The notes under the pieces are model-generated. The model was not told the origin of the DNA, ran no database searches, and worked only from the letters and a program-made list of their open reading frames with translations. The position numbers and the translations under genes were made by a program. From Chitinophagaceae bacterium (GTDB lineage Bacteria > Bacteroidota > Bacteroidia > Chitinophagales > Chitinophagaceae), in the NCBI GenBank assembly GCA_025923075.1, contig JAICGN010000042.1:1-32599 (forward strand): a DNA stretch of 32,599 nucleotides. The letters run 5' to 3'. Below are positions 9,182-31,832 of the stretch, one piece after another (within the stretch, counting starts at the first letter, position 1; each line of letters begins with the position of its first letter).

Positions 9182-12100
9182 ATGTTCAACTGTTTTTTAA
9201 ATATAGTCCTGGTGGCTGCAAGAAAGCTGAACAGCGTCTGGCGTGTATTTAATTTCAGCTTATTTATTTTTTTCTGCCTTTTTTGTCATTGCCAAACTTT
9301 TGATGAGAAAGATTATACTCGTTACACTGTTTTAGAGGGATTAAGTGATAGCTATGTTACAGGTATTACCCAGGATGAATTAGGCTATATCTGGATCAGT
9401 ACACGAAACGGACTGAATCGTTTTGATGGAAAAGAAATGGAAAGTATTTACCAGATTCCGGGTAAAGAAGGGCTCATCACTGACAACCTGGTAGATATAA
9501 AAGCTGTTGGCAACAGGTTATTGATCTATTCTGCGAAAGGCGCGGAATGGATCGATATAAAAAAAAATAGATTCATAAAGCTCAAAGTTTCTGAAGGCAA
9601 GCCCGCATTGGCATTGCAGAATTATTTTTTTGATGTGCTGATCACAAAAAATAATACCTGTTTTGTTTCAGGTTATACAGGTGTGTATGAGTTTGACAGT
9701 CTTGGTAACCTTATCTTCAGATACGACAGGCACAATCCAGACTCAACTGATAACCTGTATATCTATCCTCGTTTTGGCCGTTCCGTCAAAAAGATCAATG
9801 ACCAGCTTTTATTGCATTTTGATCTTAAATATAACATGTCTATTTATGATATCAATGCAAAGACATTTCGATCCATCGAAGAATACAAAAACAAGTTACC
9901 TGGCCTTTACTCATTAAGTGGCACAATGGCTCTGAAAGGAGATTTCGGTAAACATAAACTGCTTTTTCTTGACTTCAATTCCTGGAGGCTTATCATCTAT
10001 GATACTCAAAAAGACGTTGTTCTTACTCAGCAGTCGTTGTCGGCCTGGGCAAAAGCTTATTTTAACTGGGGCACGCATTGGGTACGGCTAAATGACAGCA
10101 CCGCTTTCATCTATGGGCAGCATAATGGTTTATACAAAATGCATATAGATCCCGTGAGTCTGCATATCAGGTATGATACAATCCCCTTAATGAACAGCAC
10201 CGTTTTTAGCGCCGCTTTCATAGACAAGAATAACCGATTGTGGTTAGGTGCACATAACGGGTTATTCCGGTATAACAAAAAGCCTGTAAACATTTTCTCA
10301 GTAAAACATCCCTCTGCAGAAAAGGCCGAATTCAATCACCCTATCTGGTTCTATAGTTTGTTTAGGTCCCCAAAATTCTTATATGCGTGCACATATTCTA
10401 CGCTACCATTTCTTGTCCTGGACGGCAATGATTACACGATAAAAAAACAGGTTTCCTTTGAAAGACTGTCAAAAAAATCAAACCAGATCTGGCAAATTGT
10501 GCCCTACAATAAAGACACCTTATGGTTTGGCACGCAAGACGGGTTGATCTGGTATGAAGAAAAGAACGGAACATTTGATCGTGTCAGTATCCCTGAAATT
10601 GACAGCTTGATACAACACAGGACCATTACATTACTTTATAAAGATTCAAAAGGAATGTTGTGGATCCAAGCGGATTGGGGAAGAGGATTCATAAAATATG
10701 ACCCTGAAAAAAGAACCAGTAAACGATATGCAATAACTGATAAAAATAATTACATGCCATTGCGGGTCGTGAATTTTGCCGCAGAGGATAAAGAAAACAA
10801 TCTATGGTTTGCTGAAAAAGGGTTGATTCGATGGAACCGGAAAACAGATGTTTTCGATACACTGATCACTTCCTACTATGGCTTTAACAAGGATAACAAT
10901 GCTATCACCGGCCTGAGCACTGATGAAAAGGGTAACCTTGTTTTCTGCAACGAAAATAACGGGGTATTGACATATGATCCAGTCACGCACCAGTATAATC
11001 AAATCACCACCGTAAATGGTTTGCAGGAAAATGCAGTCTACCAGGCAAAATCATTGGATAATTATCTTTGGGTGATCTCACACAATTATCTTACCGCAAT
11101 CAATAAAAAGAATTCAAAGGCAATAAGCTATTCATATTCGGACAGCTTTCCATCGGCCCTCTTTCTAAGGGCATACCATGACCCGGTAAAAAAAAGGTTG
11201 CTCCTGGGATTTGATAACCAGTTTGCCTGGATAAGCGATTCAATAGACAGACCACAGGAAAATTTCATCCCGTTTTATATTGACGCAATCAGTGTTGGCA
11301 ACGATACCACGCTCCTCTTTCCCGAAAAGACGATCAAATTGAAATATTTTGAAAATGATATCAGGATCCACTATAGTGCCCTGAATTTTGATGATCATCT
11401 TCTTAACCGGTATGCTTACCGCATCAACGGCAAAGAATGGGTGCAATTGGGCGACGAGAACTCTATTTATTTCAGTAATCTTTCCCCCGGTTCATACGAT
11501 CTGGAGGTCAAGTATTATTTAGCATCAGATCCGGATAATCAGAGCATCCGTACACTTAGTTTGATTGTGGCAGCGCCATTCTGGCAACAGCGGTGGTTCA
11601 TGGCAGTTGCTGCAGGCTTAGCGATCGCAATTCTAATATTCTTCTACAGGCGAAAGATCTCCGGGATAAGACAAAAGGCAAGCATTGATAAACAAATTGC
11701 AGAGTATGAGATTAAAGCCCTTCATGCGCAAATGAATCCTCATTTCATTTTTAATTGTCTCAATAGTATCCGGGAAATGATACTGAATAACGAGAATCAA
11801 CAGGCCTCTCACTACCTGAGCAAGTTTGCGCAGCTGATACGTATTACATTGAATCAATCTTCAAAGCAATTCATTACATTGGAAAGCACGATAGATTACC
11901 TTGAACGATATATAGAAATGGAAAAGATTAGAAATAATAAATTCAGCTGTACCATCGAAACGGATGATCAATTACAAACTGATGAGATCATGGTGCCGCC
12001 AATGCTTATCCAGCCATTTCTTGAAAATGCCATATGGCATGGGGCCGTTCCCGGAAAAGAGCTTCATATCGGGGTTCATTTCAAGAAAGAAAATAACCGG

Positions 12101-12337
12101 TTAATTTGTTTTGTAGAAGATAACGGCCAGGGTATCGACTCATCTTTGAATAGTAAAAAACAGTTGCAGGACCATCACAACCCCATCGGCATCGCCAATG
12201 TGAAAGAACGGATACATGTACTAAATGAAAAATATAAATTGAATTGCGAGCTCAGCATTGAAGACAAGTCGAAAAATGGCACTGGAAGCGGCACGACCGT
12301 AAAATTGTATTTTCCACTTCATTCGACAATGTCATGA
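9182..12337 (+). CDS. LytS-type sensor histidine kinase with Reg_prop beta-propeller and Y_Y_Y domain
   Basis: A 1051-residue inner-membrane sensor kinase. After a signal-anchor (about 20-37) residues about 45-690 form a two-component-regulator propeller with repeated LGYIWISTRNGLNRFDG, NNRLWLGAHNGLFRYN, DTLWFGTQDGLIWYE and KGMLWIQ motifs. A Y_Y_Y-like Ig domain follows (about 700-785, NRYAYRINGKEWVQLG), then a membrane helix (about 803-822). The cytoplasmic part has a His_kinase domain (PF06580 type) with the phospho-acceptor motif HAQMNPHFIFNCLNS (His854 in NPHF) and an HATPase region with PFLENAIWHG and EDNGQGID. The family senses periplasmic ligands and phosphorylates a LytTR regulator, which is encoded directly downstream with an ATGA overlap. 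The ligand cannot be read from the sequence; the divergent operon of surface proteins is a possible target. A start a few codons downstream is possible. Confidence 0.93.
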   Translation: MFNCFLNIVLVAARKLNSVWRVFNFSLFIFFCLFCHCQTFDEKDYTRYTVLEGLSDSYVTGITQDELGYIWISTRNGLNRFDGKEMESIYQIPGKEGLITDNLVDIKAVGNRLLIYSAKGAEWIDIKKNRFIKLKVSEGKPALALQNYFFDVLITKNNTCFVSGYTGVYEFDSLGNLIFRYDRHNPDSTDNLYIYPRFGRSVKKINDQLLLHFDLKYNMSIYDINAKTFRSIEEYKNKLPGLYSLSGTMALKGDFGKHKLLFLDFNSWRLIIYDTQKDVVLTQQSLSAWAKAYFNWGTHWVRLNDSTAFIYGQHNGLYKMHIDPVSLHIRYDTIPLMNSTVFSAAFIDKNNRLWLGAHNGLFRYNKKPVNIFSVKHPSAEKAEFNHPIWFYSLFRSPKFLYACTYSTLPFLVLDGNDYTIKKQVSFERLSKKSNQIWQIVPYNKDTLWFGTQDGLIWYEEKNGTFDRVSIPEIDSLIQHRTITLLYKDSKGMLWIQADWGRGFIKYDPEKRTSKRYAITDKNNYMPLRVVNFAAEDKENNLWFAEKGLIRWNRKTDVFDTLITSYYGFNKDNNAITGLSTDEKGNLVFCNENNGVLTYDPVTHQYNQITTVNGLQENAVYQAKSLDNYLWVISHNYLTAINKKNSKAISYSYSDSFPSALFLRAYHDPVKKRLLLGFDNQFAWISDSIDRPQENFIPFYIDAISVGNDTTLLFPEKTIKLKYFENDIRIHYSALNFDDHLLNRYAYRINGKEWVQLGDENSIYFSNLSPGSYDLEVKYYLASDPDNQSIRTLSLIVAAPFWQQRWFMAVAAGLAIAILIFFYRRKISGIRQKASIDKQIAEYEIKALHAQMNPHFIFNCLNSIREMILNNENQQASHYLSKFAQLIRITLNQSSKQFITLESTIDYLERYIEMEKIRNNKFSCTIETDDQLQTDEIMVPPMLIQPFLENAIWHGAVPGKELHIGVHFKKENNRLICFVEDNGQGIDSSLNSKKQLQDHHNPIGIANVKERIHVLNEKYKLNCELSIEDKSKNGTGSGTTVKLYFPLHSTMS

Positions 12338-13104
12338 CCCAGCGCTTGAAAAGCATATTAGTTGATGACGAACCGCGGGGATTAAGCTCCATGCAAAAGT
12401 TGCTGGAGTTAAATTGTCCTGACGTGGAGATCACTGCCCTGTGCAGCAATGTGGATGAAGCGACTGAAAAAATAAAACAATTAAGGCCAGACCTGGTTTT
12501 TCTTGACATTTCGATGCCTGTAAAAAATGGATTTGATCTGCTAAAAGAATTAAAAGACGCTCATTTTGAGGTGATATTTGTTACAGCACACAACCAGTTC
12601 ATGATAGAAGCCTTTCATTTCAGTGCTATTGATTATCTCTTAAAGCCTGTTGATGATGAATTATTGATCGACGCTGTAAAGAGAGCAAGGAAAAGAATTG
12701 CAGAAAAAACAGGAACCAAGAATATCGAAACCTTTCTTCATAACATGCAAGTGAAGCATTCACCACAGAAAATGAAACTATGTGTATCATCGCTGAAAGG
12801 CTTCCAGGTCGTAGAATTGGATGATATACTTTATGCTGAATCCTCAGGCAACTACACTAATTTAAATTTTACCAACGGACAAATCATCTGCACTTCAAAA
12901 CCGATGCACGAATATGAAGAACTATTAGAAGATTCGGGCTTTATCAGGATCCATAAATCATTTCTCGTTAACCTGCTGCATGTAAAAGAATATGTCCGAG
13001 GCGAAGGTGGTTCCGTGATTCTTTCCAACAATAAAGAGATAGAAGTGAGCAGAAGAAAAAAAGATATTTTCTTAACTAAGATGAAAGGGTTTTATAAATA
13101 TTAA
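12334..13104 (+). CDS. LytTR-family response regulator
   Basis: A 256-residue DNA-binding regulator. Residues about 6-122 are a receiver domain with the acidic pair D11-D12, the phospho-acceptor D58 (LVFLDISMP), the conserved Thr in FVTAHN and the Lys in YLLKPVD. Residues about 150-250 are a LytTR DNA-binding domain (LYAESSGNYTNL, FIRIHKSFLVNL). The ATG overlaps the kinase stop codon as ATGA at 12334-12337, so the two are translationally coupled and form a cognate pair. The targets are unknown. Confidence 0.95.
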   Translation: MTQRLKSILVDDEPRGLSSMQKLLELNCPDVEITALCSNVDEATEKIKQLRPDLVFLDISMPVKNGFDLLKELKDAHFEVIFVTAHNQFMIEAFHFSAIDYLLKPVDDELLIDAVKRARKRIAEKTGTKNIETFLHNMQVKHSPQKMKLCVSSLKGFQVVELDDILYAESSGNYTNLNFTNGQIICTSKPMHEYEELLEDSGFIRIHKSFLVNLLHVKEYVRGEGGSVILSNNKEIEVSRRKKDIFLTKMKGFYKY

Positions 13105-24715: not shown

Positions 24716-24741
24716 CCGCCGTTGGTTAAAACCATGTAGTC

Positions 24742-26298
24742 TTAACGTTTTTTCACAACAATTTTTTCTACTGTTTGTTCTCCCGTTTCTGTGTCAACGA
24801 TCCGGATAGTATAGAACCCGGCCAACAGATTATCGATTTGAATATTGTTAGTGGTAACACTCTTCCATTGCTTAATGATCCTGCCATTTAAATCCGACAG
24901 CGATACGTCCCGGGGTGTATTTACATCTGCAAACACAACATTCACTTTGCCATCGGCACTTGGATTTGGATAAACAATTGTTTTTCCTTTTTGACTTCCT
25001 GCTCTTACTGCACGTATTGGGCTGTAAGCATGCTTGCCGTCAATATCAACTTGTCTTAATCGGTACTGGCTTATGCCTTTTGCATTGTTAAGATCTGAAA
25101 AGTCATATTTCAGCAGAGAGTTACTGCTACCATTCGCCGCTTTCGTTTCAACAAATCCCAGGGTCTGCCAAATATTATTGCCAAGATTTCTTTCAACATA
25201 AAATCCCCTGCTGTTCTGTTCACTTACTGTTTCCCATTTTAAAAGAACATTCGAATTGTTGCGTGCCGCAGTAAATAACCTTAATGACACAGGTAGCGGT
25301 GACGCCGCACAAGCCTCTTCAACTACCGGCGTACTCAACGTATTTACAAATTCCCTCGCAGTCACTTCTACATAGATGCCCCATAATGACCAGGGTTCGC
25401 TGCAACAAAAGTCTCCCGGGAGATCAAGCAAACCAGAACTAAATGGAGTTGTAGAATTTACGATGATCGTATCGGAGACAAATAAAAGCGAATCATCACC
25501 ATCAGGTTCTCTTATACCATCCAGGTCATCGGCATAAAGACGGTAAACCACATGAAGGTCAACGGTGCTTGCTGCAGTAAGCGCAACAGAATACTGGAAA
25601 GGAACTGCAGCACAGACTTTTTGAAGAGCAATTGTTGGATCCCCGAAGGACTGACCGATTCCACAGACATAACATTGAGCTTTAGGATCAGGTGCATTTG
25701 AATTAGAACCCCATATATCTGTTTTTATTATTACAGGAGTACCACATGGCGTATTTACTATTACTTTTAAATTAGTGATTTCAAAATGTAATGTATCTGA
25801 GTTTCCTTGCCTGGTTATTGTTGCCATCATCCCGGGTGAATTCAATGGAGAGTTTAAAACAACACTGGGATCATGAGGATAAGTAGTTGCAATATTAGCA
25901 GTAACATTGACCGGTACATCAGGGGCAAATGTGAGATCATTTAGATTTATAAATCCAATATCATTAAATGATTTCCCGGGGTCATCAATCGCAGTTCCCA
26001 GTTGAGCACTTGTGCCGGGGTCGACAGCAGGGGTATTTCCACTGCAATCAAAGATCGGCGGATTTGGATAATCCTGCAGCAACCATGAATGAAAAAATAA
26101 ATACTTAAACCCGGAATTAGTAACAATATCAAACGATACATCGATCGTATATTGACATTTGTTAGGACCTAAGGGGGTTATATCTGTCGAAAACGCCCTC
26201 GCCAGGTTCGGGAACGAAAGGTCGCACTGGGCATTAAGTCGATTAAATGAAAACAAAGCTCCGCTGACAAGAAAAAGAGAAAGTAAAAACTTTTTCAT
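24742..26298 (-). CDS. T9SS cargo protein, ten-cysteine passenger family, copy 1
   Basis: I use the ATG at 26298 (518 aa); the frame extends two codons to a TTG. A signal peptide ending NRLNAQ is followed by a passenger (about 24-338) that I do not recognise. It contains DIVTNSGFKYLFFHSW, QLGTAID, TDIWGSNS, QCYVCG, DLHVVYRLYADD and DFCCSEPW, and has ten cysteines in the same places as in the two sister proteins. Residues about 340-430 are an FN3-like beta domain (LPVSLRLFTAARN, GFYVERN, GISQYRLRQVDIDG). Residues about 438-518 are a type A sorting domain (GKTIVYPNPSADGKV, GFYTIRIVDTETGEQ, ending VEKIVVKKR). No catalytic residues stand out. It is presumably a disulphide-stabilised surface protein of unknown role. 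Confidence 0.88.
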   Translation of the reverse strand: MKKFLLSLFLVSGALFSFNRLNAQCDLSFPNLARAFSTDITPLGPNKCQYTIDVSFDIVTNSGFKYLFFHSWLLQDYPNPPIFDCSGNTPAVDPGTSAQLGTAIDDPGKSFNDIGFINLNDLTFAPDVPVNVTANIATTYPHDPSVVLNSPLNSPGMMATITRQGNSDTLHFEITNLKVIVNTPCGTPVIIKTDIWGSNSNAPDPKAQCYVCGIGQSFGDPTIALQKVCAAVPFQYSVALTAASTVDLHVVYRLYADDLDGIREPDGDDSLLFVSDTIIVNSTTPFSSGLLDLPGDFCCSEPWSLWGIYVEVTAREFVNTLSTPVVEEACAASPLPVSLRLFTAARNNSNVLLKWETVSEQNSRGFYVERNLGNNIWQTLGFVETKAANGSSNSLLKYDFSDLNNAKGISQYRLRQVDIDGKHAYSPIRAVRAGSQKGKTIVYPNPSADGKVNVVFADVNTPRDVSLSDLNGRIIKQWKSVTTNNIQIDNLLAGFYTIRIVDTETGEQTVEKIVVKKR

Positions 26299-26602
26299 AG
26301 ACAAATTTTAATGATGAATAATATGAATGTGGTTATCCAGGCATTGATTCTGCCCGACATAGGATTTACAAAAAATAAACCGTCTCTGTGCCTTGTACAA
26401 AAAGCTATCCACTCTTTCAGAAAAGATTTTGACGTTTTAAAATGAGTTATTATCGGAAAAACCCGGTCTTGCTTGTGTAGAAATGTGCGATTCGGCCTGG
26501 AAAAGTGTAGAATATTTTAATCATTCCTGGAGCACCAAAGTATCCCCTAGCTGAATTAAGGCCGTTGCCCCGACAAAAAATCTGATCGGCAATCCTGGAT
26601 AG
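26299..26602. other. Spacer upstream of copy 1; diverged copy of the array spacer
   Basis: No gene is visible. Two patches recall the conserved spacers farther right: tttcagaaaagattttgacg (26415-26434), like tttcaggaagagtttttgac at 29617-29636, and aagtgtagaat (26503-26513), identical to bases near 28440-28450. The promoter of the leftward gene should be here; cctggataac on the minus strand (near 26338-26347) resembles the -7 areas proposed for copies 2 and 3, but I see no well-spaced partner. Confidence 0.45.
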
Positions 26603-26633
26603 AAATAAAAAGGGGCGGCACGAAAGCCGCCCC
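26603..26633 (-). terminator. Conserved G+C hairpin terminator, cargo gene at 26659
   Basis: Perfect 8-bp arms ggggcggc (26612-26619) and gccgcccc (26626-26633) with loop acgaaa; the minus strand continues TTTTTATTTC. The same 3' block ccgccgttggttaaaacc separates it from the stop codon. Confidence 0.9.
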
Positions 26634-26658
26634 CGCCGTTGGTTAAAACCTTGAAGCT

Positions 26659-28206
26659 TTAACGCTTTTTCACGACGATCTTTTCAACAATCTGCTCGCC
26701 AGTTTCCGTATTAACAATACGAACGGTATAAAATCCGGTACCCAGGTTTTCTATCTGCAGGGTATTACTCATTACACTCTTCCATTGTTTCATCATCCGT
26801 CCGTACATGTCCATTAATGATACATCACGACTTCCATCTTTATCTTCAAACACTACAATTACCTTACCATCGTTGCTTGGATTTGGATAAACAATTGTTT
26901 TACCTTTTTGTCCTTCACTACGGACTGCCCGTATCTGGCTGTATGATTGTTTGCCATCTATATCTAGTTGCCTTAACCTGTATTGCGAAATCCCTTTTGC
27001 ATTATTGAGGTCGGTGAATTCATAGCTAAGCGGCAGGCTGCTGTTTCCATTTATCGCTTTTGTTGCTACAAAGTCAAGTGTTTGCCATCCGCCACCAGGA
27101 AGCTTGCGCTGAATATCAAATCCTTTGCTGTCTTCTTCCAGCGCCGTTTCCCAATTTAAAGTCACATAACCAGAACCATTGCGAACTGCGGTGAATGATT
27201 TAAGATTGACAGGCAATGTTGCGCAATCTGCTGAAATCATCGGTGAGGTTATCGTGTTTAAGAATTCCGTACCTGTAACTTGTACATAGAGGTCCCATTG
27301 TGCCTCGGGCTCACTACAACAATATGGGTTCGGTAAGGCAATTGCGGCAGGATCATATGGATTGAGATTATTTAACGTAATTGTTCCTGATGTGAAAAGT
27401 AATGGGTCACTCGGATGAGGGTCAGGACCCAGTGAAGGATCATGTGCATAGAGCTTATAAACAACATGTAAATCTGTTGCACTTTCTGTTGATAAGCCAA
27501 TATCATAAGAGAAGGGAGACGAACCGCAAAATTTAATAAGAGAAATAATGGGATCGTCAACTGACTGGTATAAGCCGCAGATATAGCATTGTGCTTTCGG
27601 ATCGTTTGCGCTTGAATTAGATCCCCAAATATCTGATTTGACAATAACCTCTTCCCCGCATGCACCATTGATAACAATCCGGATATTCGTTACCACAAAA
27701 TGTAAAATGTTTGAATTTGTTCGGGTAATGATCGCGGTTAAACCCGGAGAATTAGATGGCTCAGTTAATATGACACTATTATCATGGGGATAAATGGTGG
27801 CAAAATTTGCAGTGACATCAACGGGCGTTCCTGTCGGAAAATCAAGATCATTAAGGTTCACAAAACCAATATCAATAAAAGACTTGCCTGCTTCATCAAT
27901 CGCAGTACCTAGCTGGGCATTGGTGCCCGGGTCTGCCGCCGGCGTGGCTCCGCCGCAATTAAAAATTGCCGGGCTTGGATAATCTGCGAGCAACCACGAA
28001 TGAAAAAAAAGGTATTTAAAGCCTGAATTGGTGGTGATGTCAAAAGAAGCATTGAACACATACTCACATTTGCCATTGCCTAAGTCATTAGGCTCTCCTA
28101 CAGGAGTAACCATCAGGTTACTGAACTGGAGATCACATTGTGCTTTTGCATTATTAGTAACTACTAATGCAGACAGCGTTAAAAAAGAAAGTAAGATTTT
28201 TTTCAT
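26659..28206 (-). CDS. T9SS cargo protein, ten-cysteine passenger family, copy 2
   Basis: I use the ATG at 28206 (515 aa), where a signal peptide starts (MKKILLSFLTLSALVV...AKAQ). The frame stays open to 28302, but that stretch contains the candidate promoter. The passenger (about 24-333) aligns along its length with copy 1: DITTNSGFKYLFFHSW, QLGTAIDEAGKSF, DIWGSNSS, QCYICG, DLHVVYKLYAHDPSLG, YCCSEPEAQW, with the same ten cysteines. Then come the FN3-like segment (about 335-430, LPVNLKSFTAVRN, YRLRQLDIDGKQSYSQIR) and the sorting domain (about 437-515, GKTIVYPNPSNDGKV, ending VEKIVVKKR). Function unknown. It has its own terminator and candidate promoter, so it may be transcribed alone. Confidence 0.88.
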   Translation of the reverse strand: MKKILLSFLTLSALVVTNNAKAQCDLQFSNLMVTPVGEPNDLGNGKCEYVFNASFDITTNSGFKYLFFHSWLLADYPSPAIFNCGGATPAADPGTNAQLGTAIDEAGKSFIDIGFVNLNDLDFPTGTPVDVTANFATIYPHDNSVILTEPSNSPGLTAIITRTNSNILHFVVTNIRIVINGACGEEVIVKSDIWGSNSSANDPKAQCYICGLYQSVDDPIISLIKFCGSSPFSYDIGLSTESATDLHVVYKLYAHDPSLGPDPHPSDPLLFTSGTITLNNLNPYDPAAIALPNPYCCSEPEAQWDLYVQVTGTEFLNTITSPMISADCATLPVNLKSFTAVRNGSGYVTLNWETALEEDSKGFDIQRKLPGGGWQTLDFVATKAINGNSSLPLSYEFTDLNNAKGISQYRLRQLDIDGKQSYSQIRAVRSEGQKGKTIVYPNPSNDGKVIVVFEDKDGSRDVSLMDMYGRMMKQWKSVMSNTLQIENLGTGFYTVRIVNTETGEQIVEKIVVKKR

Positions 28207-28258
28207 ACTACGAAGATTTAATGTTAATAAAAATGATTTACCAGGGATCCAGATAAGA

Positions 28259-28497: not shown

Positions 28498-28525
28498 TAA
28501 AAAGGGGTGGCGCGAAGGCCACCCC
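28498..28525 (-). terminator. Conserved hairpin terminator with compensatory change, cargo gene at 28552
   Basis: Perfect 8-bp arms ggggtggc (28504-28511) and gccacccc (28518-28525), loop gcgaag. Compared with ggggcggc/gccgcccc in two sister terminators, the same base pair has changed on both arms, which keeps the helix intact. Confidence 0.9.
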
Positions 28526-28540
28526 CCGCCGTTGGTTAAA

Positions 28541-28550
28541 ACCTTGAAGC
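28541..28550 (+). repeat. 3' arm of a 10-bp inverted repeat flanking the 318-aa gene
   Basis: accttgaagc here, one base outside the stop codon of the minus-strand gene, is the exact reverse complement of gcttcaaggt at 29509-29518, directly outside its start codon. Confidence 0.75.
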
Positions 28551-28551
28551 T

Positions 28552-29508
28552 TTAACGCTTGTTTACAATAATCTTTTCCACTACCTGCTCACTTGTTTCT
28601 GTGTTCACAATGCGAATTGTGTAGAAACCCGGTGTCAGGTTATCAATCTGAACAATATTATTTGTAACGCCTTTCATTTGCTTAATGACACGGCCACTCA
28701 AATCCGTCAATGAAATATCACGAATACCACTCACCTCATCAAACAAGATGTTCACTTTACCGTCACTGCTCGGGTTAGGGTAAACAATTGTTTTGCCTTT
28801 CTGACCATAGCCACGAACGACGCGGATGTCACTTAATTTGGATCTGCCGTCAATGTCAACCTGCCTGATGCGATACTGGCTGATCCCTTTTGTTGAATTC
28901 TGATCAGTGTAAGAATACGTAAGATCAGATGAGCTATTACCACCACTTGCCTGGCTTGCAATAAATGAAAGAGTTTCCCAGGTTCCATTGCCGATCAGTC
29001 GCTGAATTTCAAAACCGCGATTGTTGCTTTCCATAGAGGTTGTCCATTTCAAAGCAACAACACTATTGTTGCGTGAAGCGGTAAAGGCACGGAAAGAAAC
29101 CGGAAGCGTTCCTTCCTCACCACTACATGGAGCTCCATTATAAGAAACGACAAATCTAAACACTGAATTTCTGCCTCCGAGATTGTTATTGTTATTTGGC
29201 CCAACATAATAACAATATTTTACATCGCCGTTATTAAGCAATGTTCCCGTACCAAAGGTGATGTCTTCCACTAATACAGGGTTCAGCGGATCAGTGATAT
29301 CCGTGACAAAGGCAATGGTGGGTATCAGCAGCGGATCAATTACCCCGTTAAATGACAAGGTTATCGTTCCTGTCGCAGACGTTCCGTTTAGGTCCGGGCA
29401 ACTACCACCGCCATTGTTAATTTGGTAATCGCGGACACAGGGGTTTTGTGAGAAAACAAAGCTTACTGATGATACGATCAGTAAGAATAAAAGTAGAATC
29501 TTTTTCAT
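28552..29508 (-). CDS. T9SS cargo protein with a different passenger on the shared C-terminal cassette
   Basis: 318 residues. Signal peptide MKKILLLFLLIVSSVSFVFS. The passenger (about 21-130) is short, Asn/Gly-rich, has four cysteines (NPCVRDYQIN, GGSCPDLN, VKYCYYVG, APCSGEEG) and does not resemble the ten-cysteine passenger of its neighbours. From about 134 the sequence switches to the array's common cassette: LPVSFRAFTASRNN, NNRGFEIQRL, GISQYRIRQVDIDGRSKLS, then the sorting domain (GKTIVYPNPSSDGKV, GFYTIRIVNTETSEQ, ending VEKIIVNKR). The cassette, 3' block, terminator and spacer all match those of the neighbours, so only the passenger differs. Function unknown. Its coding sequence is bounded by a perfect 10-bp inverted repeat. 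Confidence 0.88.
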   Translation of the reverse strand: MKKILLLFLLIVSSVSFVFSQNPCVRDYQINNGGGSCPDLNGTSATGTITLSFNGVIDPLLIPTIAFVTDITDPLNPVLVEDITFGTGTLLNNGDVKYCYYVGPNNNNNLGGRNSVFRFVVSYNGAPCSGEEGTLPVSFRAFTASRNNSVVALKWTTSMESNNRGFEIQRLIGNGTWETLSFIASQASGGNSSSDLTYSYTDQNSTKGISQYRIRQVDIDGRSKLSDIRVVRGYGQKGKTIVYPNPSSDGKVNILFDEVSGIRDISLTDLSGRVIKQMKGVTNNIVQIDNLTPGFYTIRIVNTETSEQVVEKIIVNKR

Positions 29509-29518
29509 GCTTCAAGGT
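29509..29518 (+). repeat. 5' arm of the inverted repeat flanking the 318-aa gene
   Basis: gcttcaaggt directly precedes the start codon (reading leftward) and is the reverse complement of 28541-28550. In the transcript ACCUUGAAGC before AUG could pair with GCUUCAAGGU after UAA. Confidence 0.75.
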
Positions 29519-29558
29519 ATTTATGTTAAAAAATAGTTTACAGGGAATCAGATGTAAA

Positions 29559-29590
29559 CAAAGCCAGCGCTAAAGAAGCATTAAATCAAA
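29559..29590 (-). promoter_or_regulatory. Candidate promoter of the 318-aa cargo gene
   Basis: On the minus strand TTTG (29590-29587), 20 bases, then TGGCTTTG (29566-29559). This matches the spacing and shape of the element upstream of cargo copy 2. Confidence 0.45.
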
Positions 29591-29601
29591 GTTGTTTAAA
29601 A

Positions 29602-29790
29602 AATGCCGTGTGGTTTTTCAGGAAGAGTTTTTGACAGGTGTTGGAGTTGAGTGATCACAGGCGCGTACTGGTCAAAATTTTTGGTGGGGATAAAGCCAGT
29701 CCAGGTTTATTCAAAGGACATTGCGGAAGGGTATAGTTATATATTCAAGTTACCGAAAATTTTAAGTGTCAAAAAAAATTGATCTATTCT
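29602..29790. repeat. Conserved array spacer, copy B
   Basis: This block aligns with 28301-28497: aatgccgt, ttttcaggaagagtt, gatcac, ttatatattcaagttac and aaattttaagtgt occur in the same order. I see no open frame in it. Confidence 0.75.
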
Positions 29791-29818
29791 AAAAAAGGGG
29801 CGGCTCGACGGCCGCCCC
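29791..29818 (-). terminator. Conserved G+C hairpin terminator, cargo gene at 29843
   Basis: Perfect 8-bp arms ggggcggc (29797-29804) and gccgcccc (29811-29818), loop tcgacg, with a T run following on the minus strand. The ccgccgttggttaaaacc block separates it from the stop codon. Confidence 0.9.
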
Positions 29819-29829
29819 CGCCGTTGGTT

Positions 29830-29841
29830 AAAACCTTGAGC
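29830..29841 (+). repeat. 3' arm of the inverted repeat flanking the 531-aa gene
   Basis: aaaaccttgagc is the reverse complement of gcttcaaggtttt at 31439-31451 except for one missing base. It lies directly outside the stop codon. Confidence 0.6.
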
Positions 29842-29842
29842 T

Positions 29843-31438
29843 TTAACGCTTGTTTACAATGAATTTCTCTACTGTCTGTTCACCTGTTTCGTTATTTACG
29901 ATCCGTACAGAGTAGAATCCCGCATTGAGGTTATCAATCTGGATGTTGTTATTAGTAACGCCTTTCCATTGTTTTAATGTTTTTCCGCTTACATCCATCA
30001 ATGACACATCACGAGTGCTATTCACATTTTCAAATACTATATTCACTTTACCATCACCACTTGGGTTTGGATAGATGATCGTTTTGCCTTTCTGACCTTC
30101 ACCACGAACAGCACGAATTTGGCTAAGAGCTTGTTTACCATCTATATCCAATTGTCTTAATCTATATTGTGTGATTCCTTTCGAATTATTGGCATCACTA
30201 AATTCGTAGGTAATTGGCAAACTGCTGTTACCATTCACTGCTTTTGTCTCAACGAAGTCAATTATTTGCCATGCGCCATTTGAAAGTTTACGCTCAACAT
30301 AGAATCCTTTACTGCTTTGTTCCTGTGCGGTTTCCCACTTTAACTCTACAATACTTGCATTCTTACGAATCGCATTAAATGCTTTTAAATTTACTGGCAA
30401 TGTTGCACATGTCGAATTTACAAGAGGTGTTGACACAGTATTCTGAAACTCCTGACCGGTAACCTGTACATATAAATCCCATTGTGCCCACGGATCAATA
30501 CAGCAATACGGATTTGGAAGGTCTATTGGATCAGGGTTGTGAGGCACGTTCTTGCTCAAAGTAATTGTTGGAGAAGTGTATAGTAATGGATCAGTATTAG
30601 GGTCAGCAACATTGCCTAAACTTGGATCGTGAGCATATAGCTTATAAACAACATGTATATCTGTTGTACTTTCTGTGCTTAATCCAATATCATATTGAAA
30701 TGGGCTTGAACCACAGATTTTTGTCAATGATATAGAAGGATCATTAAATGATTGTGGGACTCCACAAACATAACATTGAGCGCCAATCTTACTTTTAGAA
30801 GTTCCTAACTGAGATCCTGTCGCATTTGAACCCCAGACATCCGTGATGAGTGCAGGGAAACCACCGTCGCTGCATGGACCAAGTATTTCAATCTCGATAT
30901 CATTAATCTCAAAATGCAAAATGGAAGGATCATTTTCGTCTATTGTCACAAATGCACTTGCAGCAGTGTTTAAAGCAACAGTTTCGTTAATGTTATTATC
31001 ATTATTTGGATAGTCCGGAGCCTGTGCAATTAAACCTGTTATAGGGTACTTAACGCCGGGTGTGTTATTCGCGGCAAGAAATTCCTTTAAACCAATGAAT
31101 CCAAAGTCGAGGATCGATTTGTTTGCAGCATAAATTATTGAGCCCAGCTGAGTGACGTTTCCAGGGCTCTGGTTGGGGGTATGTCCCGTACCGCAATCGA
31201 ATAACGCAGGATAATCCTGCGCAAACCAGGTATGGAAAAACACATACTTAAATCCTGAATTTGTTGTAAGATCAAAAGTCGCACTGAACGTGTACTTGCA
31301 ACGTTCAGGCCCCAATAGCTGCTCAGGGATACCCGCAGTAGTCACCAGGTTACTTAACTCAATGTCACATTGTGCTTTGGTATTGGTTGCAATACCAAGA
31401 GCGAGGACTGTCATTAATGAAAGTAAAATCTTTTTCAT
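29843..31438 (-). CDS. T9SS cargo protein, ten-cysteine passenger family, copy 3
   Basis: 531 residues with signal peptide MKKILLSLMTVLALGIATNT, ending KAQ. The passenger (about 23-345) is the most diverged of the three sisters but keeps TFDLTTNSGFKYVFFHTW, DVWGSNAT, QCYVCG, DIHVVYKLYAHDPSLG, YCCIDPWAQW and all ten cysteines; it has a longer middle section and an insertion after DVWGSN. FN3-like segment about 348-445 (LPVNLKAFNAIRKN, YRLRQLDIDGKQALSQIR); sorting domain about 453-531 (GKTIIYPNPSGDGKV, GFYSVRIVNNETGEQ, ending VEKFIVNKR). Function unknown. The bases just outside its start and stop codons form an inverted repeat with one bulge. Confidence 0.88.
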   Translation of the reverse strand: MKKILLSLMTVLALGIATNTKAQCDIELSNLVTTAGIPEQLLGPERCKYTFSATFDLTTNSGFKYVFFHTWFAQDYPALFDCGTGHTPNQSPGNVTQLGSIIYAANKSILDFGFIGLKEFLAANNTPGVKYPITGLIAQAPDYPNNDNNINETVALNTAASAFVTIDENDPSILHFEINDIEIEILGPCSDGGFPALITDVWGSNATGSQLGTSKSKIGAQCYVCGVPQSFNDPSISLTKICGSSPFQYDIGLSTESTTDIHVVYKLYAHDPSLGNVADPNTDPLLYTSPTITLSKNVPHNPDPIDLPNPYCCIDPWAQWDLYVQVTGQEFQNTVSTPLVNSTCATLPVNLKAFNAIRKNASIVELKWETAQEQSSKGFYVERKLSNGAWQIIDFVETKAVNGNSSLPITYEFSDANNSKGITQYRLRQLDIDGKQALSQIRAVRGEGQKGKTIIYPNPSGDGKVNIVFENVNSTRDVSLMDVSGKTLKQWKGVTNNNIQIDNLNAGFYSVRIVNNETGEQTVEKFIVNKR

Positions 31439-31451
31439 GCTTCAAGGTTTT
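31439..31451 (+). repeat. 5' arm of the inverted repeat flanking the 531-aa gene
   Basis: gcttcaaggtttt directly outside the start codon matches the reverse complement of 29830-29841 with a one-base bulge. Its first ten bases equal those outside the start of the 318-aa gene. Confidence 0.6.
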
Positions 31452-31592
31452 TTTGGTCGGCTTGTAACAGACCTTTTTTTTAATAAATAGTTTTTTACAG
31501 TTTACGAATCACTACCCTTCGGCTTTATTTTTCGGGGTAGTATATATGATGAGTTAATTCATCCACTTGTTAGTGGTGATTCATCAGGAGGT

Positions 31593-31709
31593 TGGAACCT
31601 TGGCATTCAGAATAGGAAGGGACTTAGCTTTGATTCGCTTCAATAGGGGTATGGAAACCTGGCATTCAAAATAGGAAGGACTTAGCTTCGGATCGCCTTA
31701 ATAGGGGTA
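31593..31709. repeat. Tandem direct repeat, 59 + 58 bases
   Basis: Unit 1 (31593-31651) begins tggaaccttggcattcagaa and ends caataggggta; unit 2 (31652-31709) begins tggaaacctggcattcaaaa and ends taataggggta. They differ at scattered bases and one indel. Non-coding. Confidence 0.9.
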
Positions 31710-31820
31710 TGGTACTGATAATTCAGAAGTATTGGAGAATCTTTGGTGCCACAAATGATCATTGTACAACACAATCACCATTGCAGCTACACAATAGAGT
31801 TCAGGCGAAAATGGATTTTG

Positions 31821-31832
31821 TTAACCAACGGC
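31821..31832 (+). repeat. Inverted partial copy of the array 3' block
   Basis: ttaaccaacggc on the plus strand equals the minus-strand 3' sequence of four cargo genes (ttaaccaacggc in ggttttaaccaacggcgg). The preceding ggattttg also resembles the block's ggtttt. Orientation is opposite to the genes. Confidence 0.55.

Follow-up and report, generated by a model that had tools for sequence, protein, structure and literature searches.

The icaR mRNA of Staphylococcus aureus has a long 3' untranslated region (UTR) with a motif that pairs with the Shine-Dalgarno region of the same mRNA, and this pairing blocks initiation and creates a substrate for RNase III (PMC3868564). In the toxin mRNAs hok and aapA, the full-length mRNA folds back and its 3' end masks the translation start (PMC5502269, PMC6733600). 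Bacteroidetes generally lack a Shine-Dalgarno sequence, and in Prevotella, also a member of this phylum, constructs with start-region structures of -5.2 and -11.1 kcal/mol yielded 0.12 and 0.007 times as much protein as an unstructured one, the abstract giving a five times lower level for the -5.2 kcal/mol structure (PMC3155529). Here we describe short complementary sequences (arms) that abut the start and stop codons of genes for cargo proteins of the type IX secretion system (T9SS) in a Chitinophagaceae bacterium. The window analysed is the whole contig JAICGN010000042.1 (G000:C42; 32599 nucleotides), and G000 is its genome. The arms recur in relatives, and their pairing may mask the translation start.

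Complementary ends of four tandem cargo genes

The window contains four tandem paralogs on the minus strand (24742-26298, 26659-28206, 28552-29508 and 29843-31438, named c0 to c3 below), each with a C-terminal T9SS type A sorting domain that scores above the curated cut-off. Their features are as follows.

29843..31438, minus strand: T9SS type A sorting-domain protein, 531 amino acids, paralog c3 (PF18962 / TIGR04183)
31439..31451, minus strand: 5' arm of c3, abutting the ATG (sequence reading, pattern search, RNAduplex)
29830..29841, minus strand: 3' arm of c3 (GCTCAAGGTTTT), one nucleotide past the stop (sequence reading, duplex energy)
29796..29819, minus strand: terminator-like hairpin behind c3 (hairpin scan)
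28552..29508, minus strand: T9SS type A sorting-domain protein, 318 amino acids, paralog c2 (PF18962 / TIGR04183)
29509..29518, minus strand: 5' arm of c2 (ACCTTGAAGC), abutting the ATG (sequence reading, pattern search, duplex energy)
28541..28550, minus strand: 3' arm of c2 (GCTTCAAGGT), one nucleotide past the stop (sequence reading, pattern search, duplex energy)
28502..28527, minus strand: terminator-like hairpin behind c2 (hairpin scan)
26659..28206, minus strand: T9SS type A sorting-domain protein, 515 amino acids, paralog c1 (PF18962 / TIGR04183)
26648..26657, minus strand: 3' arm of c1, intact (sequence reading, pattern search)
28207..28220, minus strand: 5' arm of c1, degenerate (AAATCTTCGTAGT; -5.1 kcal/mol)
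26611..26634, minus strand: terminator-like hairpin behind c1 (hairpin scan)
24742..26298, minus strand: T9SS type A sorting-domain protein, 518 amino acids, paralog c0 (PF18962 / TIGR04183)
26299..26311, minus strand: 5' arm of c0, degenerate (AAAATTTGTCT; comparison of ends, duplex energy)
24728..24741, minus strand: 3' arm of c0, degenerate (GACTACATGGTTTT); the arms of the G002 ortholog are intact and co-changed (comparison of ends)

In c2, ACCTTGAAGC lies directly upstream of the ATG (29506-29508), and the stop codon (28552-28554) is followed by one base (28551) and then by the complement at 28541-28550. Direct reading and a pattern search thus recovered the perfect 10-nucleotide inverted repeat that a sequence-only reading of this DNA had reported; together with the flanks, the ten perfect pairs extend to 14 pairs of -16.0 kcal/mol (RNAduplex). 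The other two sets of arms in that reading were also found as it described them. The c3 arms form 12 pairs, interrupted by a single bulge (-14.0 kcal/mol), and c1 keeps its 3' arm while its 5' side pairs in register only over the seven bases AAATCTT with one wobble (-5.1 kcal/mol). The genes are paralogous, as had been stated. The fourth paralog, c0, was absent from that reading and has degenerate arms (AAAATTTGTC / TACATGGTTTT, -3.9 kcal/mol).

The motif ACCTTGAAGC with at most one mismatch occurs at 7 places in the window against 1.9 expected, and 1 of 100 shuffles was as high. In the whole genome ACCTTGAAGCATG has two exact places, both in this cluster; its one-mismatch matches are not notable because they amount to 6 places in all against 3 for a reversed control pattern. 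The 17-base 3' arm GCTTCAAGGTTTTAACC with up to two mismatches was found at two places, both in the cluster, and its control at 0; a third copy of the 3' arm lacks one base and is hence unmatched by this search.

The 5' UTR of c3 contains a hairpin at 31455-31473 (minus strand), immediately before the 5' arm. The relatives L043 and L045 have a hairpin at the same place with different stem sequences, and the folds in c3, L043 and L045 reach -6.1, -8.7 and -14.3 kcal/mol. This hairpin may protect the 5' end of the mRNA.

Recurrence and covariation of the arms in relatives

A profile of the last 99 residues, built from 20 sequences, was searched against 394 genomes of the family and matched 53 of them at E<=1e-18. 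Searches at genus level (E<=1e-28) matched 2/2 in g39, 14/42 in g136 and 2/4 in g127, and an order-wide draw gave matches in 8 of 396 genomes at E<=1e-26, every one inside the family. From these relatives 102 distinct sorting-domain genes were collected with flanks. Genes missing an end, or whose chosen start had no following K or R, were excluded from the 5'/3' tests, which left 84 with both ends and a usable start codon, picked by a rule blind to the arms. The 30 genes scoring at least 130 bits form the main subfamily, and the 54 lower-scoring sorting-domain genes form the comparison group.

An anchored helix was defined by a 5' side ending at most 2 nucleotides from the ATG, a 3' side starting at most 6 nucleotides past the stop, at least 8 pairs and an energy of -7 kcal/mol or lower. 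Such helices were found in 19 of the 30 subfamily genes and in 0 of the 54 lower-scoring genes; among 298 ordinary genes of G365, taken as a further control, 9 have one. The 19 genes are spread over seven genera (g1, g13, g28, g39, g49, g127 and g136), with helices of -7.3 to -16.0 kcal/mol, and three further subfamily genes narrowly missed a cut-off (G002 L044, -12.1; G471, -9.2; G462 L241, -7.5 kcal/mol). The same-genus relatives of the window's genome, G001 and G002, provided a same-genome control: T9SS sorting domains have 50 matches in G000 and 54 in G002, and 20/21 other places of G000 and 19/19 of G002 among the matches listed were taken, plus one of G001. None of the 21 other sorting-domain-like genes that had both ends (10 in G000 and 11 in G002, among the matches listed) contained an anchored helix, and their mean was -3.26 kcal/mol. 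Judged from these sequences, the arms are confined to a subset of the sorting-domain genes, while the domain itself is common.

The 5' motif was also considered as a general leader. This was rejected, as its family-wide matches in L083, L125, L126, L127, L133, L134 and L140-L143 open frames of only 4-50 codons. In eight unrelated genes that carry the 5' motif (L130 not counted) the motif has no 3' partner, with energies of -0.8 to -6.7 kcal/mol; two ran off the locus.

Partition functions were computed on whole mRNAs of 1.0-2.1 kb, and pairing was counted between the last 16 nucleotides before the ATG and the first 26 after the stop. Of the 29 subfamily genes short enough for folding (L247 exceeded the length limit), 17 have at least seven expected end-to-end pairs, against 1 of 64 control genes, which encode 280-420 amino acids and represent the shorter part of the length range. 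For c2 and c3 the expected numbers are 11.5 and 12.2. Many subfamily mRNAs thus have a 3' UTR segment complementary to their own translation-initiation region, by anchored helices as well as by whole-mRNA folds, and an end-to-end fold of the full-length mRNA is predicted. Given the rarity of the arms in their own genome, their recurrence in relatives and these controls, chance or composition is an unlikely origin.

Own 5'/3' pairs bound better than permuted ones in the 84 genes (-7.44 against -6.23, p=2e-4) and in the 30 subfamily genes (-11.08 against -9.59, p=8e-4), and the 54 lower-scoring genes gave no signal (p=0.27). Much of this advantage reflects the co-occurrence of the arms. L048, L176, L050, L179 and L180 have neither motif; they were dropped from the 25-row alignment of the arms and kept in the permutation, anchored-helix and whole-mRNA folding counts. 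In the alignment 86.2% of the pair cells are standard, compared with 14-57% in slid controls. Double-change cells number 10 against 4.2 in shuffles (3/500) and the covariation score is 0.176 against 0.134 (2/500), fractions that are not probabilities because the shuffles ignore relatedness. The clearest double change is in the G002 ortholog of c0 (L044), with 5' AAACCTTGTA and 3' TACAAGGTTT (CCTTGTA/TACAAGG), where its paralogs carry CCTTGAA and TTCAAGG or TCAAGG. The protein tree, whose 58 rows were labelled at slightly looser limits (22 with arms, 26 with none, 10 unknown), unites the three orthologs of c0 at 100/99. Further paired variants are CCTGAG/CTCAGG (G269 and G453) and CTTTGAGC/GCTCAAGG (G017). 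As judged from these alignments, covariation of the arms is modest, and it is supportive but not proof; of the check that the sequence-only reading had put forward, recurrence and double changes above shuffles were obtained, and the swap tests described below were weak. The ortholog of c0 in G001 (L043) has, by eye, no ATG near the expected start; it may use another start or be damaged.

These data bear on two other explanations. The two motifs could be inverted copies of the binding site of one protein, on DNA or RNA, so that pairing would be unnecessary. Both are conserved as sequence, and the g1 form CTTGAAG/CTTCAAG comes close to a palindrome, which would allow a dimer to recognise it both ways round. 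However, clearly non-palindromic forms still pair (CCTGAGAGC; CCTCTGAGC and CTCAGAGC), and the position of the 5' arm follows the start codon rather than the upstream region, from which the hairpin separates it in c3, L043 and L045; we consider a protein site unlikely. The arms could also be a functionless leader and trailer, inherited and kept by recent duplication and gene conversion. The genes are paralogous and in places tandem, and the swap tests are weak, which would fit. However, the arms persist across seven genera while the cargo differs and the terminator stems change, and they are present in sorting-domain genes outside the subfamily, so that we think this very improbable.

The 3' element and possible pairing in trans

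A terminator-like hairpin with a T-run follows the 3' motif in all 31 genes picked by that motif, c0 included, by a lenient test. This bears on another proposal of the sequence-only reading, that the repeats mark a DNA cassette that was inverted or exchanged. The repeats flank the coding sequence exactly, and the cargo regions differ among genes with common ends. However, each of the 31 3' arms precedes a terminator-like site, as far as the lenient test shows and with no direct search for reversed segments, and the arms hold bulges and wobbles, which RNA tolerates. A cassette thus found no support and is extremely improbable.

In 13 genes of g136 (12 chosen by the 3' motif, with L241 added), the 3' motif hardly varies across about 12 bases and lies outside the local consensus fold, and double changes are present at 8 of 10 terminator pairs. 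We considered the 3' arm as one half of a local hairpin. Single folds of several g136 sequences pair GGTTT with a downstream AAACC, yet RNAalifold on the 13 sequences returned only the terminator, and this candidate was rejected. A CTTGA- or ACCTTGA-like stretch (as GCTCAGGGTTTTTATACCTTGAACCCC) a few bases behind the 3' motif could pair locally with it in L046, L130/L317, L294, L311 and L312. A known RNA family was likewise rejected, as Rfam gave a single match at E of 1 or less, whose score of 19.2 is below the gathering score of 34.

Sorting-domain genes outside the main subfamily also carry arms: L310, L309, L317 (the same as L130) and five genes of G441 and G462. All six that were scanned (L310, L309, L317, scanned as L130, and three of G441/G462) pass the PF18962 cut-off. 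In L310 (795 amino acids) AAAACCTCTGAGCA pairs with TGCTCAGGGTTTT at -19.7 kcal/mol. With starts picked with the arms in view, the arms of L317 (G292, g41) pair at -9.7 kcal/mol and those of L309, whose 3' motif is about 20 nucleotides past the stop, at -13.0 kcal/mol from the second ATG. The five G441/G462 genes have 5' ends of AAACCCTTGAGC-ATG or AAAAATCTCAGAGC-ATG plus a variant, and their 3' motif is about 135-140 nucleotides past the stop; the helices reach -14.8, -14.8, -12.1, -12.1 and -9.5 kcal/mol, one of the -14.8 values being from the second ATG of the frame.

The 3' UTR, as arm plus terminator, could act in trans: it could be, or be released as, a small RNA on the leaders of a group of sorting-domain mRNAs. 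It is a serious rival because the 3' arms of sibling genes often fit about as well as a gene's own and because g136 shows less variation in the 3' element than in the 5' arms (in the 13 rows, chosen for having the element). In addition, TGCTCAGGGTTT occurs at 31 places in 10 g136 genomes against 0 for a reversed control. Of 30 such loci, 10 are within 20 nucleotides of the stop of a long frame, 5 lie about 135-140 nucleotides behind one and 15 are without a long frame; three resemble ordinary local hairpins. On the other side, the G002 gene with co-changed arms pairs more stably with its own 3' arm (-12.1 kcal/mol) than with those of its siblings (-8.9 and -9.0 kcal/mol). In G269 and G017 there is a single subfamily match each, and G032 has arms in one match only, in genomes where other arm genes were not searched for. 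Pairing in trans is on balance improbable but still carries appreciable weight.

In genus g119 (L192, L194, L195, L197, L198 and L206) another 3' UTR stretch, of the form GGACAGGAAAAACCAGATAA, stands behind a different clade of sorting-domain genes, and by eye it has no clear 5' partner. In the window, TTAACCAACGGC at 31821-31832 on the plus strand matches the core of the cluster's 3' UTRs in opposite orientation. Upstream of the cluster, at 31590-31720, a stretch of about 60-70 bases ending in AATAGGGGTATGG is by eye repeated head to tail with differences. Farther away, 9182-13104 (plus strand) encodes, from the translations only, a large histidine-kinase-like protein followed by a response-regulator-like protein.

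Proposed start masking and comparison with known systems

The sequence-only reading had suggested that the bases before the AUG pair with those after the UAA and could hide the start. The recurrence in seven genera, the 86.2% of standard pair cells and the predicted end helix in 17/29 genes support this. The arms would then make up a single RNA element, in which the end of the 5' UTR and part of the 3' UTR form a long-range helix of about 8-15 pairs and close the mRNA as a panhandle with the coding sequence as its loop. The helix would cover the stretch before the AUG where the 30S subunit lands. The first rounds of translation would precede the existence of the 3' arm. Once the mRNA is complete and carries few ribosomes, pairing of the ends could mask the start, present RNase III with a double strand, or do both, and production of the secreted proteins would cease. 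From the arms, their positions, conservation and co-occurrence, the few double changes and the predicted folding, we infer that the helix forms in cells, mainly in cis, and represses.

Start masking is the most economical reading because the helix covers the start region, because structures there lower output in Prevotella, and because the arms have energies of -7.3 to -16.0 kcal/mol. In the main subfamily, where the 3' arm begins 0-6 nucleotides past the stop, active translation should keep the helix open because both arms would be under a starting or an ending ribosome. This effect of ribosomes cannot extend to genes whose motif is far past the stop. In some other sorting-domain genes the 3' arm is about 20 or about 135-140 nucleotides away from the stop.

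Several results weigh against start masking. The two window paralogs other than c2 and c3 have 0.0 and 0.19 expected end-to-end pairs, and L309 gives only -4.2 kcal/mol from its first ATG. The anchored test is also passed by the 9 ordinary G365 genes mentioned above, and by 50 of 869 gene/start combinations when as many as three ATGs are allowed for each gene. Swaps of the 3' arm cost little (p=0.17 for the 19 strict arm genes and p=0.05 for the 25 genes), and comparisons within a genome favoured the gene's own 3' arm over that of a sibling in 11 of 24 cases, neither in 5 and the sibling's in 8. In the 25-row alignment, pairs with a double change number 5 against 2.6 (20/500 shuffles) and further pair types 10 against 8.9, not above shuffles (116/500), and related sequences can exceed such shuffles without structure. 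RNAalifold on the joined ends predicted nothing. Independent drift of the two arms, which the sequence-only reading had named as evidence against itself, is partly seen, as G467 keeps the 5' motif with its 3' arm gone and c1 has a weak 5' arm; in one ortholog group (G002 L044) the arms changed together. Weighing both sides, we give about an even chance to masking of the translation start by a duplex of the 5' and 3' UTRs in these sorting-domain mRNAs.

The closeness of the arms to the codons would also fit a clasp for termination and reinitiation, in which the helix sets the stop beside the start, the terminating ribosome is handed on and output is raised. In the main subfamily the helix ends 0-2 and 0-6 nucleotides from the codons, by the test used, and so places them opposite each other. 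However, the 3' motif is about 135-140 nucleotides past the stop in the five G441/G462 genes and about 20 in L309, and the helix covers the ribosome landing site, where structure strongly lowers translation in Prevotella (PMC3155529). Such a clasp is very unlikely.

A broader form of start masking is speculative, and we regard it as doubtful. T9SS cargo mRNAs of several sorting-domain subfamilies would form a closed-loop regulon with one 3' element, GCTCA[A/G]GGTTT, and matching leaders at the start, giving a translational switch for the whole group that opens and closes the mRNAs end to end, in cis and across the set, and is shared across genera; in the main subfamily, where the helix reaches both codons, access to the start would be governed by the ribosome at the stop codon itself. 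If true, this would be a bacterial counterpart of closed-loop translation.

All four window genes have the Por secretion tail, or T9SS type A sorting domain (PF18962, TIGR04183), which is common in their own genome, whereas the arms are limited to a subset. The arms would amount to control of T9SS cargo at the RNA level, and no such case was among the literature matches listed; likewise, we found no description of arms of this type in Bacteroidota in the open-access literature, as far as its texts were available. The fold-back of hok and aapA mRNAs, which masks the start region, resembles what is predicted here. Those are toxin mRNAs (full-length aapA3 has 225 nucleotides) with an antisense RNA, and 3' trimming activates their translation. 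Here, in contrast, mRNAs of about 1-2 kb encode secreted proteins, and the pairing is predicted from sequence and folding; the window genes, which encode 318-531 amino acids with sorting domains, contain no small toxin frame.

The icaR mRNA is similar in that a 3' UTR motif is complementary to the start region of its own mRNA, and cis and trans action are not separated there either. It differs in its pairing with a Shine-Dalgarno sequence, its long 3' UTR and its being one gene. Here the 5' arms are AAAACCTTGAAGC-like without a GGAGG-like stretch, so this is not Shine-Dalgarno pairing, the 3' arm of the main subfamily is within a few bases of the stop, and the genes encode T9SS cargo in several genera. 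In a phylum that is generally without Shine-Dalgarno sequences, this comparative case would let closed-loop mRNAs be tested directly as a wider form of bacterial control. Pairing between 5' and 3' UTRs is already known as a kind, and the pairings in the cited papers concern single genes or toxin mRNAs; its recurring form here, in many genes for secreted proteins and in several genera, looks new.

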